A DNA stretch of 64,000 nucleotides. Origin: Candidatus Bathyarchaeota archaeon (lineage in GTDB: Archaea > Thermoproteota > Bathyarchaeia > Bathyarchaeales > Bathycorpusculaceae). Position 1 is the first letter of the stretch, and each line of letters starts with the position of its first letter. Below, piece by piece: positions 12,730-49,250 of the stretch. The translations under genes were made by a program, and so were the position numbers. The notes beneath the pieces were generated by a model, which saw nothing but the letters and a program-made list of their open reading frames with translations, searched no databases and was not told the origin of the DNA. Location of the stretch: contig JAOZHW010000007.1 in NCBI GenBank assembly GCA_026014685.1, forward strand, positions 248,001-312,000, read 5' to 3'.

Positions 12730-14628
12730 TTAACCGTGGAACGAGGGGCGCTTAGACAGATACAGCGGCAACGGCAGAGGCTTAAACGGTTTACCAGCGA
12801 TCTTCTCCGATACCTTCTTGATGAGTTGATCTGCAGTCATGGTTTCTTGTTTGCCCTTCTCTTCGCGAACACGAACAGACAGGGTTCCTGACTCGATTTC
12901 TTTTTCCCCCACCACGATGATGTAGGGCACCCACTCCTGCTCAGCTTCACGGATCTTCTTCTGAAGCGTCGAGGCGGAATCGTCTATGTCAACGCGGATG
13001 TTGTGCGAGGAGATTTGCTGTGCGAGGGCTTCGACTTTGTCGAGGAACTTGTCAGATATCGGAATCAGGCGGACCTGAGTTGGTGACAGCCACAGCGGCA
13101 ACATGGGCGCTTTCCCCGTCATCTGCTCACGGTAAGCCTTCTCCAGCAACGCATAAATGTCACGTTCGATGGCGCCGCTTGGGCTACAGTGTAAAATCAG
13201 TGGGAACTGTTTTTCGCCTTTCTCGTCCACGTAGGTTATGCCGTAACGTTTCGCGTTCTCCACATCAATCTGGTCGGTGCTCAGCGCGGCGGCTTTGTCT
13301 TGGTTGTCTACAAAGTTTAAGTCCCATTTCAGGGCGAAATAGAAGAAGCGCTCGTTCCAGACTTCAGCAAGGATGGGCTTGCCAAATTTGGCTGCCAACG
13401 AAGCGATGAAGTCTTTATGCTCTGCGTAGAAGTCCTTTGTAAAGCGCATCGCAATCTCGTAGTCATCTTTGACCAAGCCGATGTTTTCTAGGACGTCGAT
13501 GCAGAGGTCGAAGCGGATCATGAACTCCTTCTTAGCCTGCTCAAGGTCAGTGCAGAAGGCGTGACAATCAGGCATCGTGAACGCACGGAGCCGTTTTAGC
13601 CCGACGACTTCGCCGCTTTTCTCTCTGCGGAAACTGTAACGGGTTAGTTCGTAGAGTTTGATTGGCATCTGTTTGTAGCTGAACTGGGCGTCATGTGCCA
13701 TGAGGAACTGCCCAAAGCACGCGGCGAAACGGAGAAAGAGTTCTTTGTCTTCGGATTTGAGGACGTATTGGCGTGCAGGGAAACGGTTCAGGTAACTTGA
13801 AAGGCTTGGGTGGTTGAAGTCATACATCAGCGGCGTCTCAACCTCCATACCGCCATACTGCGCCACTCGGAGACTAACGTACTGCTCAAGTAGCGACTTC
13901 ATCAAACGACCTTTGGGGTACCATCGCACGTTGCCAGGATCGCTGCCTGGTTCGTAGTCAGCGATTTCAAGCCGCTTCATCAACGGAACATGCGGAGGCA
14001 TCTGTGTGACGGCGCGGGTCTTCTTGATTTCGTATTGGCTAAATTTCTGCAGGTTACTTTTGCCTTTGAACTTGTACTCTTCAATCGGCACCAATGAACC
14101 GTCCGTTTGCAGAATATGCCAATAAGACTTCAGGGTGTCTTCTGCTTTAAGCGCCGCAGAGACAGGTTCCTCTTCCTTTTTGCCTTCACAGGGCGCCTTC
14201 GCTTCCGCCACTTCCTGTGTAGAAGTGTAGCTGCGAGCCATCTCAGCCAGCGGGTGCCCTTTGATGGATATAGTGAATTGCTTGTTCCAGCCAAACGGGG
14301 CGCGGAAGGTTTCTATGCCTTTGCTTTTGGCGTAGACTTCCATGTCTTTGATTATGGCGAGTGCTTGGCTGGGTTGGCTGAGATTACTGCTGAGGTGCGC
14401 GAAGGGGTAGATGAGGACGCGGTTAACTTTGAGTTTACCCAAGAACGCACGGGCGTCATCTATGGCTTTCTGTGCCAACGCTGAACTGTCGCCTTCCTCA
14501 ACCGCAACGAAGAGCACAACGACTTCTTCGATGCGGGTTTCTTCTTTGGAGGCTTCTTCGGCTATGTTGATTTCTTTCTCTATGGGTTTGAAAACTATAA
14601 AGTTGGAATGTAACTGTAAAATGCGCAT
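12730..14628 (-). CDS. thrS: Threonyl-tRNA synthetase, archaeal type
   Basis: A 632-residue class II synthetase. The N-terminal ~145 residues (MRILQLHSNFIVFKPIEKEI to FGWNKQFTISIKGHPLAE) form the archaea-specific editing domain related to D-Tyr-tRNA deacylase, not the bacterial TGS/N2 domains. The catalytic core follows, with motif 2 around YSFRREKSGEVVGLKRLRAF and motif 3 around LILHCSPSGAIERDIYALLE. The C-terminus is an anticodon-binding domain (LSPTQVRLIPISDKFLDKVE). It charges tRNA-Thr and clears Ser-tRNA-Thr. It follows a small zinc-binding gene on the same strand by 12 bases. Confidence 0.97.
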   Translation of the reverse strand: MRILQLHSNFIVFKPIEKEINIAEEASKEETRIEEVVVLFVAVEEGDSSALAQKAIDDARAFLGKLKVNRVLIYPFAHLSSNLSQPSQALAIIKDMEVYAKSKGIETFRAPFGWNKQFTISIKGHPLAEMARSYTSTQEVAEAKAPCEGKKEEEPVSAALKAEDTLKSYWHILQTDGSLVPIEEYKFKGKSNLQKFSQYEIKKTRAVTQMPPHVPLMKRLEIADYEPGSDPGNVRWYPKGRLMKSLLEQYVSLRVAQYGGMEVETPLMYDFNHPSLSSYLNRFPARQYVLKSEDKELFLRFAACFGQFLMAHDAQFSYKQMPIKLYELTRYSFRREKSGEVVGLKRLRAFTMPDCHAFCTDLEQAKKEFMIRFDLCIDVLENIGLVKDDYEIAMRFTKDFYAEHKDFIASLAAKFGKPILAEVWNERFFYFALKWDLNFVDNQDKAAALSTDQIDVENAKRYGITYVDEKGEKQFPLILHCSPSGAIERDIYALLEKAYREQMTGKAPMLPLWLSPTQVRLIPISDKFLDKVEALAQQISSHNIRVDIDDSASTLQKKIREAEQEWVPYIIVVGEKEIESGTLSVRVREEKGKQETMTADQLIKKVSEKIAGKPFKPLPLPLYLSKRPSFHG

Positions 14629-46282: not shown

Positions 46283-46786
46283 TTAGTATACGGATACTTT
46301 GGCTACTCCCGAAACCTTTAGCAATTCAGGTATTAGTTCACCGGGGATTTTTCGCTCTACAATCAACGTCAGCTTCGGCTCTGGGCTAAGTTCAGGGTCG
46401 TCAACTATGGCTTGACGTATACCTAAGCCTGCCTTGTTGAGAGCGGCTGCGGAGTTGGCTAGTATGCCTCGGGTTGCGGCGCTAGTGGGGGTGATTTCGA
46501 TTACGCCCAAATTGAGGTGTTTGGCGATTTCTTTTAGGCTGTGGCCTGCGGGGCGTATTTCTTCAAAAATCATGCGCAACTCGGGGGTGTTGTGGATGGT
46601 TGTTAGGGTTTCGTTGACTGTTCTGCGGTCTACGCCTGCGACTCGGGCGATGCGAATGGGTGGGATTTCGATTTGGTTGAGGTAGATTTTGTCGCCCCGC
46701 GCTGAGAGACCGTTTTCGATGAGGACGCGTGCGACTTTTAGGCGTTCGGGGTAGGTTTCGAGTTGGCGCTCTATGTTCTTCCACAT
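46283..46786 (-). CDS. HTH-ACT regulator of amino-acid metabolism
   Basis: A 167-residue protein with an N-terminal helix-turn-helix (IPPIRIARVAGVDRRTVNET) and a C-terminal ACT domain (LGVIEITPTSAATRGILANS, KLTLIVERKIPGELIPELLK). Archaeal proteins of this layout are predicted amino-acid-responsive transcription regulators. TrpY of Methanothermobacter, which binds TGTACA boxes, is a comparable regulator. This one lies 1 kb before trpB2, whose promoter has two TGTACA boxes, so it is the obvious candidate. The link is inferred. Confidence 0.8.
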   Translation of the reverse strand: MWKNIERQLETYPERLKVARVLIENGLSARGDKIYLNQIEIPPIRIARVAGVDRRTVNETLTTIHNTPELRMIFEEIRPAGHSLKEIAKHLNLGVIEITPTSAATRGILANSAAALNKAGLGIRQAIVDDPELSPEPKLTLIVERKIPGELIPELLKVSGVAKVSVY

Positions 46787-46910
46787 ATTTATCCGCTTGT
46801 GTATTGTTCTGTGCGTTTAGGTATAAATGTGTTGTTTGTATTTTACCAAAAATCAGTCAAGACAATCTTAATAGGACACATTTGATATCTAATGTATTAC
46901 GGTGAAAGCG

Positions 46911-47204
46911 ATGTCAGAAACCATCACCCTCCGACTCCCACCACAGACAGCAAAAAAACTACGCGAAATCGCCAAAAAAGAAGGAAAAGACCGCTCAACC
47001 CTCATTCGCGAACTCCTCGAAAAGGGCGTCAAACAAAAAAACACTGAACAAGCCATCGAACTCTACCGAACAGGACAGGTAACAGCGTGGAGAGGAGCAC
47101 AGTTGGCAGGAGTCTCCCTTTGGGCTTTCTACAAGCTATTGGAAGACAAAGGTGTCCTTATCCAGTATTCAGAGCGCGATTTAGAACAAGACCTAAAACT
47201 CTAA
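46911..47204 (+). CDS. Antitoxin-like DNA-binding protein (UPF0175/ribbon-helix-helix type)
   Basis: A 97-residue protein. The N-terminus is a ribbon-helix-helix (ITLRLPPQTAKKLREIAKKE, DRSTLIRELLEKGVKQ) and the second half matches UPF0175 proteins (AIELYRTGQVTAWRGAQLAG, FYKLLEDKGVLIQYSERDLE). Such proteins pair with PIN-domain toxins. Here a DUF3368 PIN gene follows after 13 bases. ATG 46911 is preceded by GGTGA. It probably neutralises the toxin and represses the pair. Confidence 0.85.
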   Translation: MSETITLRLPPQTAKKLREIAKKEGKDRSTLIRELLEKGVKQKNTEQAIELYRTGQVTAWRGAQLAGVSLWAFYKLLEDKGVLIQYSERDLEQDLKL

Positions 47205-47217
47205 TGGAGTCTCGAGC

Positions 47218-47748
47218 ATGCCAACGGTTTCAAACACAAGCCCCCTTATGTGGCTATCAAAAGTTGGCAAACTCAGCCTCCTAAAAGACCTCTTCGGCGA
47301 AGTCTCCATCTCGGAAGAAAGTTACAGAGAAGCGGTCGAAGTGGGGTTGAAGGAAGGGTTCAGTGACGCTTTAGTAATAAAGGAAGCTTGCGATCAAGGT
47401 TGGCTCAAAGTCAAGATGCTAGACGAGAAGCAGAAGGCGATTTGCCAGATGATCATTCAGCAGAGTTTTGAGCTCCATTTAGGAGAAGTGCAAGCGGTTG
47501 TGTTAGCTCGGGGCTTAGGGAAAGATGCACTGTTGTTGATGGATGAGTCTTGCGGTCGGGCTTTTGCGGAAACTTGGGGGCTTAGAGTTAGAGGTGTGTT
47601 GTATGTGATAATAACCGCTCTTCGCAGGGAGTTGTTTGGCGCGACTGAAGCGAAGGAGGTTGTTTTGGCTTTGGTTCGGAAGGGGTTTAGGATTGAGCCG
47701 AAGTTGCTTGCTAGGGTTTTAGAGGAAATCGGCAGTCAAGCAAAATAA
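47218..47748 (+). CDS. DUF3368 PIN-like toxin (VapC-related)
   Basis: A 176-residue PIN-fold protein of the DUF3368 family. It begins VSNTSPLMWLSKVGKLSLLK (first acidic position replaced by N-T-S-P, as usual in this family). It continues with FELHLGEVQAVVLARGLGKD and LLLMDESCGRAFAETWGLRV, where the acidic active-site residues lie. It probably cleaves RNA when free of its partner. The UPF0175-like antitoxin gene directly upstream completes the pair; both look intact. Confidence 0.85.
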   Translation: MPTVSNTSPLMWLSKVGKLSLLKDLFGEVSISEESYREAVEVGLKEGFSDALVIKEACDQGWLKVKMLDEKQKAICQMIIQQSFELHLGEVQAVVLARGLGKDALLLMDESCGRAFAETWGLRVRGVLYVIITALRRELFGATEAKEVVLALVRKGFRIEPKLLARVLEEIGSQAK

Positions 47749-47755
47749 GACAGCA

Positions 47756-47771
47756 TGTACATTTCTGTACA
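47756..47771 (+). promoter_or_regulatory. Tandem TGTACA (TRP-box-like) operator of trpB2
   Basis: TGTACA (47756-47761), four bases, TGTACA (47766-47771): two identical palindromic boxes spaced one helical turn apart. They end eight bases before the TATA box. TGTACA is the TRP box bound by TrpY in Methanothermobacter, where it also controls trpB2. Confidence 0.65.
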
Positions 47772-47778
47772 GAAAAGC

Positions 47779-47790
47779 CTTAAATAAAAC
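47779..47790 (+). promoter_or_regulatory. TATA box of trpB2
   Basis: CTTAAATAAAAC lies about 40-50 bases before the trpB2 ATG, directly after the two TGTACA boxes. Confidence 0.55.
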
Positions 47791-47828: not shown

Positions 47829-49250
47829 ATGCCGGACAAAAAAATTCTACTCAAAGAAACAGACATACCAAAACAGTGGTACAACATCGTGCCCGACCTG
47901 CCACATCCCCTGCCACCATTCCTCGAAGCAGAAACAGGGAAACCAGGCGTCGGCATAGTCCCCAAAATTTTCCCCAAAACAATCATAGGACAAGAAATCA
48001 GCCAAGAACGCTGGATAGACATCCCAGACGAAGTCCGCGAAGTCTACAAAATCTGGAGACCCAGCCCGCTCTTCCGAGCGTTCAACTTGGAAAAAGCTCT
48101 CAAAACACCCGCCAAAATCTACTACAAATACGAAGGCGTCAGCCCCTCAGGCAGCCACAAAACCAACAGCGCCGTACCCCAAGCATACTACAACATGAAA
48201 GAAGGCATAACCCGCGTCACCACAGAAACAGGCGCAGGACAATGGGGCAGCGCGCTCTCGTTTGCAGCTAACCAGTTCGGCTTAGAAGCAACCGTCTACA
48301 TGGTTCGCGCAAGCTTCGACCAGAAACCCTACCGCAAAGCCATGATGAACGCCTTCGGCGCAAAAGTCTTCGCTAGTCCAAGCAAAGAAACTGAGTCTGG
48401 GCGCAAAATTTTAGCTGAAGACCCCGACAACAAAGGCAGCCTCGGCATCGCCATCAGCGAAGCCGTAGAAGACTCCCTTACAAGCGAAAAAACAGGCAAG
48501 AAAGCAAACTACACCATCGGCAGCGTCTTCAACCACGTCTGCATGCACCAAACCGTCGCTGGACTGGAAGCTCAAAAGCAACTGGCGATGGTTGAGGATT
48601 ACCCTGACGCAGTTTACGGCTGCATCGGAGGCGGCAGCAGCTTTAGCGGCTTGTTCTGGCCCTTCTACTATGACAAAGTCAGCAAGAAGGCACCCAAAGA
48701 AACCCAGTTCATCGCCGTCGAACCCACCGCGTGCCCCAAAGTCACCAGAGGCTACTACACCTTCGACCACGGCGACACCGCCAAACTCACCCCGCTTGTC
48801 CCCATGCACACCTTGGGCCACGATTTCATGCCAGCCCCCATTCACGCAGGCGGCTTACGCTATCACGGCATCGCACCAACCATCAGCGTGCTTGCACAGG
48901 AAAAGAAAATCAGCACCCTCGCCGTAAACCAGGTGGATGCTTTTGACGCAGCAAAAATCTTCATCCGCAGTGAAGGCATCATCCCCTCGCCAGAATCCAC
49001 CCATGCAATAAAAGCTGTCTGTGACGAAGCCCGAAGATGCAAAGAAACCAACACATCCAAAACCTTGCTGTTTGCTTTGACGGGTCATGGATTCTTTGAC
49101 ATGTCAGCCTACGACGAGTACTTCAACGGCAAATTGCAACCATATGAGTACCCGACCGAGAAAGTCGCGGAATCCATGGAGAAGCTACGCAAACTTTACC
49201 CGTGGTTAAGCGAAGCAACCAAACAATACATCGGCTGCGAAAGCATCTAA
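47829..49250 (+). CDS. trpB: Tryptophan synthase beta chain, TrpB2 type
   Basis: A 473-residue fold-type II PLP enzyme. The PLP lysine is in YEGVSPSGSHKTNSAVPQA (Lys about 111), with TTETGAGQWGSALSFAANQF and CIGGGSSFSGLFWPFY downstream. The long N-terminus (IPKQWYNIVPDLPHPLPPFL) and total length are those of the TrpB2 group, which acts without TrpA or as an indole-salvage serine deaminase/synthase. No other trp gene is adjacent. Two TGTACA boxes precede the TATA box, which points to tryptophan-dependent control. Confidence 0.95.
   Translation: MPDKKILLKETDIPKQWYNIVPDLPHPLPPFLEAETGKPGVGIVPKIFPKTIIGQEISQERWIDIPDEVREVYKIWRPSPLFRAFNLEKALKTPAKIYYKYEGVSPSGSHKTNSAVPQAYYNMKEGITRVTTETGAGQWGSALSFAANQFGLEATVYMVRASFDQKPYRKAMMNAFGAKVFASPSKETESGRKILAEDPDNKGSLGIAISEAVEDSLTSEKTGKKANYTIGSVFNHVCMHQTVAGLEAQKQLAMVEDYPDAVYGCIGGGSSFSGLFWPFYYDKVSKKAPKETQFIAVEPTACPKVTRGYYTFDHGDTAKLTPLVPMHTLGHDFMPAPIHAGGLRYHGIAPTISVLAQEKKISTLAVNQVDAFDAAKIFIRSEGIIPSPESTHAIKAVCDEARRCKETNTSKTLLFALTGHGFFDMSAYDEYFNGKLQPYEYPTEKVAESMEKLRKLYPWLSEATKQYIGCESI

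Follow-up and report, generated by a model that had tools for sequence, protein, structure and literature searches.

TrpY of Methanothermobacter thermautotrophicus reportedly targets the trp operon and also trpB2, and the consensus of its TRP box is said, in papers from the Reeve laboratory, to be TGTACA. To our knowledge, little is known about amino-acid-responsive control of transcription in Thermoproteota. Methanothermobacter TrpY acts as a repressor and binds to TRP boxes in the trpY-trpE intergenic region (PMC6737238). TkTrpY (TK1227) of Thermococcus kodakarensis, like the bathyarchaeal protein described here a TrpY homologue outside the Methanothermobacter group, showed no specific binding to the trp promoter and no regulation of trp (PMC6737238). 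The aromatic amino acid activator Tar (TK0271) of Thermococcales, which is a different protein from TkTrpY, recognises TGGACA-N8-TGTCCA, and its targets are trp, tyr-phe and aro genes (PMC6737238). Almost no Crenarchaeota genomes contain homologues of Tar or TrpY, and a third mechanism may exist there (PMC6737238).

The analysed DNA, referred to as the window, is a stretch of 64,000 nucleotides from a Candidatus Bathyarchaeota archaeon. Its trpB2 promoter and gene contain the following features:

47756-47761, plus strand: TRP box 1, TGTACA, read from the sequence; letter counts in 30 related promoters T27 G30 T27 A30 C27 A27
47766-47771, plus strand: TRP box 2, TGTACA, read from the sequence; letter counts in 30 related promoters T28 G29 T30 A23 C29 A22
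47763-47776, no strand: perfect palindrome of 14 bp, TTTCTGTACAGAAA, around box 2, read from the sequence; conservation is limited to the box and part of the flank
47772-47787, plus strand: BRE/TATA region GAAAAGCC-TTAAATAA of the trpB2 promoter, read from the sequence
47829-49250, plus strand: trpB2, a TrpB-like PLP enzyme of 473 aa and the presumed target (NCBIfam NF009057, 684 bits; TIGR01415 trpB_rel, 602 bits)

A preliminary description of the window had placed a TGTACA-N4-TGTACA element upstream of the trpB2 TATA box, eight bases before CTTAAATAAAAC. The position of the element was confirmed (47756-47771), with TTTC as its spacer and a centre-to-centre distance of 10 bp between the boxes; the gap between the second box and CTTAAATAAAAC (47779-47790) amounts to seven bases, GAAAAGC, and the earlier count is thus right to within one base. 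The palindrome TTTCTGTACAGAAA is centred on the second box. Single TGTACA hexamers occur in the window at chance level (10 observed, 12.05 expected); the exact pair is found once in the window and once in the whole 2.3-Mb genome. Pairs with one mismatch in the same genome (C7:321284, C8:93026, C23:40259) are all located within coding sequence. These three sites were considered as additional regulon members and rejected as coding or isolated and background-like, as were two additional exact sites in relatives, one in an aminoacyl-tRNA-synthetase-like ORF (G008:C145) and one near an integrase-like ORF (G013:C32).

Of 81 related genomes, 75 contain a TrpB-like match, in some cases another TrpB form; for the 30 best-matching trpB2 genes the promoter was examined in gene orientation. 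The pair is present in every one of these 30, never with more than two mismatches in its twelve letters (eight exact, 13 with one and nine with two mismatches). Absence of the boxes from close relatives had been named beforehand as an observation that would refute the proposal, and the element withstood this test. The letters of the boxes are 73-100% conserved in these promoters, the four spacer letters vary, and the length of the spacer is always four. Conservation peaks at the boxes, the A-rich BRE and the TATA box and is at background level upstream of box 1; the motif AAAG(N)CTTAAATA in the BRE/TATA region is retained by nearly all relatives. One clade, L029-L036, which includes Bathycorpusculum records, displays three TGTACA-like boxes in steps of 10 bp in its trpB2 promoters. 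More distant families (L047, L055, L062) have a relaxed dyad at the same place, for example TGAACA-TTTT-TGTTCA.

A search of the 81 related genomes revealed 31 exact pairs, 11 of them in trpB2 promoters, 11 in trp-operon promoters and nine elsewhere. The reversed pattern, which served as control, occurred 15 times, so that the excess of pairs falls wholly on trp promoters. These genome-wide controls rule out a chance origin of the pair. The genomes are related to one another; counts are therefore not independent, and p-values given here are guides only.

The second class of exact pairs, 11 sites about 4 kb upstream of trpB1, corresponds to the promoter of trpE-G-D-C-B1-A. The same element is present at the trp operon of the window's own genome, beyond what could be seen in the window itself. 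Here the pair reads CGCACA-TTTT-TGTACA-AACAAGCCTTAAATA, with two mismatches, and the composite box-N4-box-N3-AAGNCTTAAATA is found in this genome at trpB2 and trpE only. All 31 trpE promoters read from the genus and family (L080-L134) have at most two mismatches, and the distance from the end of the pair to TAAATA is exactly 10 nt in all 31 (null expectation 0.0066 per 100 nt). In one Bathyarchaeota record (L210), trpEGDC is clustered with trpB2 and trpY, and boxes precede each of trpB2, trpY and trpE. Two assemblies (G002, G024) have kept the trpE boxes, and neither trpY nor this trpB2 was found in them; since the two genes are neighbours, a single missing contig can explain the double absence.

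The region between the presumed regulator and trpB2 is arranged as follows:

46283-46786, minus strand: TrpY-family HTH-ACT regulator of 167 aa, the presumed regulator (NF053754 TrpY_fam; AlphaFold)
46822-46827, minus strand: TTTATA, the TATA box of the trpY-like gene, read from the sequence and conserved in relatives
46902-47204, plus strand: RHH/UPF0175 protein, antitoxin-like, between trpY and trpB2 (Pfam PF03683, PF01402)
47218-47748, plus strand: DUF3368 protein, toxin-like partner of the RHH gene (Pfam PF11848)

Comparison of the 167-aa protein with the NCBIfam model NF053754 ('TrpY family transcription regulator') gave 180 bits over residues 2-164 (179.4 bits in the genome search), which places it right at the curated cut-off of 180 bits; in the set of relatives, matches in 53 of 57 genomes are above this cut-off. 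Pfam searches with 16 aligned members detected an ACT domain in 11 and HTH models in up to 10 of them, with weak E-values. The AlphaFold model of the regulator (pLDDT 89) has an HTH region at its N-terminus and an ACT-like domain at its C-terminus, and its top Foldseek matches are ACT domains (PGDH, IlvN), NikR and Lrp-type regulators. PDB sequence searches with the regulator revealed no clear relative, and Methanobacteriota are absent among the best 80 loci listed in a scan of named genomes.

In most relatives trpB2 and the trpY-like gene lie side by side in divergent orientation, their starts usually being separated by 90-240 bp. In the window the genes are 1 kb apart, because the RHH/UPF0175 and DUF3368 genes are situated between them, and the boxes have stayed with trpB2; most relatives leave no room for an RHH gene at this place. 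The inserted gene pair (46902-47748) is toxin-antitoxin-like and is missing between trpY and trpB2 in most relatives. A trpY gene about 1 kb off is likewise seen in L018. Across the 81 genomes, 54 have both trpY and a gene of the trpB2 clade, one has trpB2 only, three have trpY only and 23 have neither, which leaves four discordant genomes (Fisher p = 6e-16). The proposal, made from the window alone, that the HTH-ACT protein is a candidate TrpY equivalent is supported by the match to the family model at its cut-off, by linkage to trpB2 and by co-occurrence. Five relatives (L155, L159, L165, L172, L173) carry an exact pair about 30 nt before the trpY start, between TATA box and start codon, which suggests autoregulation, presumably autorepression, as far as promoter architecture can tell; near the window's trpY there is merely a degenerate trace of the pair. 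Two Methanomethylicota records (L207, L208) possess a TrpY-family gene with 65% identity to the window protein. No trp genes and no box pairs were found near it, so this TrpY has another or a distant target.

The bathyarchaeal system resembles that of M. thermautotrophicus in its HTH-ACT regulator of the family named after TrpY, its TGTACA boxes, its trp targets and the divergent orientation of the regulator gene to one target. It differs in belonging to another phylum, and in that trpY is divergent from trpB2 and not from the trp operon, with the exception of L210, where all are together. Moreover, both bathyarchaeal targets have one fixed pair at a constant distance upstream of BRE/TATA, and some relatives have a separate pair downstream of the TATA box at trpY. 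With the Tar site the pair shares a dyad of TG..CA half-sites directly upstream of the BRE/TATA of the trp operon, whereas the half-sites of Tar are 14 bp apart as against 10 bp here, and motif and targets are other ones.

TrpY-family proteins were detected in 149 of 398 Thermoproteota genomes. When 40 trpE promoters from outside the order were divided by the presence of TrpY, pairs were present in the TrpY genomes (n=18; 0-5 mismatches, median 3) and absent from the TrpY-less genomes (n=22; 4-7 mismatches, median 5; Mann-Whitney p = 3e-7, again only a guide as the genomes are related). The element before trpE thus goes with the regulator. The suggestion that TRP-box control would reach beyond methanogens is right for the box system; the protein family as such is already covered by the NCBIfam model. 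The box/regulator pair is a new occurrence, in another phylum and with a geometry of its own, of the known TrpY/TRP-box system.

Taken as one operator for the TrpY-family HTH-ACT regulator about 1 kb away, the box pair would define a TrpY/TRP-box regulon of trpB2 and the trp operon, a reading that we hold with high confidence. Directly established are the element, its conservation, its two targets, and its linkage to and co-occurrence with TrpY. The proposal of TRP-box control of trpB2 in a TACK archaeon gains support from conservation, linkage and the second target; binding by TrpY, the role of tryptophan as ligand and the direction of regulation are inferred only, in the absence of binding or expression data. 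TkTrpY, which does not regulate trp, means that family membership alone would not suffice; here boxes and linkage are present as well. A TrpY dimer, or stacked dimers, would contact the two TGTACA boxes from one side of the helix, through consecutive major grooves, with the ACT domain as likely amino-acid sensor. By analogy to Methanothermobacter TrpY, the most likely outcome would be a tryptophan-dependent hindrance of TFB/TBP loading. We rank repression first and activation second. With the same operator and regulator, TrpY could instead recruit TBP/TFB to trpB2 and trpE when tryptophan is scarce, in the manner of Tar, and repress only its own gene, an option that we keep as a tentative one. 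The constant spacing of 10 nt between the trpE pair and TATA, unneeded by a purely steric repressor, leaves room for it, as does the position upstream of BRE/TATA, which is typical of archaeal activators including Tar (PMC6737238), and at trpY the pair, located around -30 between TATA box and ATG, occupies a repressing position, as self-repression would have it. Yet the sole TrpY with a published trp function is a repressor (PMC6737238, citing the Methanothermobacter work), and the core promoter, with its well-kept TATA box and A-rich BRE, looks strong and gives no call for an activator.

That the pair serves a different dyad-binding archaeal factor and the neighbouring TrpY controls something else appears improbable to us. 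The trp genes of T. kodakarensis are under Tar and not under its TrpY (PMC6737238), and another dimer could recognise the 14-bp palindrome that surrounds box 2; however, the flanks of this palindrome are less conserved than both boxes, the boxes track the presence of TrpY across the phylum, and the pair occurs in the promoter of trpY itself in the five relatives named above. The fixed distance to TATA would also fit boxes that are merely an extended core promoter, a long BRE without any regulator, but we give this almost no credence: only two promoters of the genome carry the element, both belonging to tryptophan synthesis; elsewhere the exact pair does not exceed background, and it is missing from the trpE promoters of TrpY-less genomes. 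As a generic core promoter element, the pair should recur at numerous unrelated promoters; the genome search revealed not a single one. For the preferred reading, an operator of TrpY, the two-target regulon with its operator fixed relative to BRE/TATA offers a simple system for studying how an archaeal regulator interacts with the TBP/TFB machinery. The switch known from methanogens would then operate in a distant archaeal phylum as well, and a function is suggested for a family present in over a third of the sampled Thermoproteota genomes.

The start of trpE displays a further peculiarity:

G000:C8, L080 about 13680-13770, minus strand: trpE start with frameshift leader; also in L081-L142, L210 and L228-L264

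In the window's own genome the TrpE frame contains no ATG, GTG or TTG before codon 108, a position far into the protein. A different frame holds the conserved start ATG (ATG-GGG-AAT-CGC-CTT-TGG-C...), which opens a short ORF with an early stop, and TrpE resumes in the +1 frame from TTTGG. A leader of this kind, consisting of a start, 3-6 codons and NTT TGG with TrpE in the +1 frame, was found in 72 of 81 trpE genes of Thermoproteota, and NUU-UGG is present in practically all leaders. Among the 72 leader-bearing genes, 59 have no ATG, and 35 no ATG, GTG or TTG, in the TrpE frame before the conserved LLES region. In 11 genomes a TrpE-frame stop directly adjoins the slip site, which leaves entry into the frame possible only there or later. 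Pairing of the leader with the anti-Shine-Dalgarno sequence is stronger than in shuffled sequences (-8.1 versus -5.1 kcal/mol; 0 of 200 shuffles as good). In G020 (L111) an indel at TTTGG (CCTTGACAACC) removes the shift and the same ATG reads straight into TrpE, which supports the assigned start. The downstream genes of the trp operon have ordinary starts.

Judged from these reading frames, trpE appears to need a ribosomal +1 frameshift at the Trp codon, the frameshifted product being inferred. A sequencing error is ruled out by the same arrangement in 72 trpE genes, single-contig genomes among them, and an upstream near-cognate start is excluded in the 11 genomes with the abutting stop. Polymerase slippage was rejected as there are three Ts only and no long run. 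An ordinary start at a GTG of the TrpE frame is possible in families f19, f48 and f51, where such a codon overlaps the leader, and in part of f25, and not in most Bathyarchaeia.

Bacterial prfB (RF2) has a +1 site with a short leader, an SD-like stretch and the slip codon CUU followed by UGA, after which translation continues in the +1 frame. The trpE leader shares the short leader, the SD-like stretch, the CUU/NUU slip codon and a slow next codon. Compared with the RF2 site CUU-UGA-C, UGG (Trp) takes the place of the stop codon UGA, the organisms are archaea and trpE is the gene concerned; charging of tRNA-Trp would be the presumed signal here, as against the RF2 level at prfB.

Slow decoding of UGG under tryptophan starvation would be expected to raise TrpE synthesis. 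Two tiers of control would then meet at trpE: TrpY at paired TRP boxes acting on transcription, and a programmed +1 frameshift at a Trp codon through which the TrpE frame is entered mainly when charged tRNA-Trp is scarce, a 'hungry-codon' attenuator extending over much of Thermoproteota, even without TrpY or boxes. We regard this two-tier scheme as probable, with moderate confidence. Recoding reviews (PMC5009743; for archaea PMC8211752) and literature searches, largely without subscription papers, revealed no such case; should the trpE frameshift be confirmed, it would represent a type for which we have found no description among biosynthetic genes. The use of hungry-codon frameshifting as a biosynthetic feedback switch was left open by Atkins et al. 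2016 (PMC5009743). If true, trpE would be the first case known to us of starvation-driven frameshifting in this role, as well as a rare instance of a conserved +1 frameshift in a cellular gene of archaea. The leader is present in families without TrpY, which makes the apparent frameshift an independent layer. In family f22 (L233-L236), TrpY and box pairs are present, trpE has an in-frame start instead of the frameshift leader, and the two control layers thus come apart.
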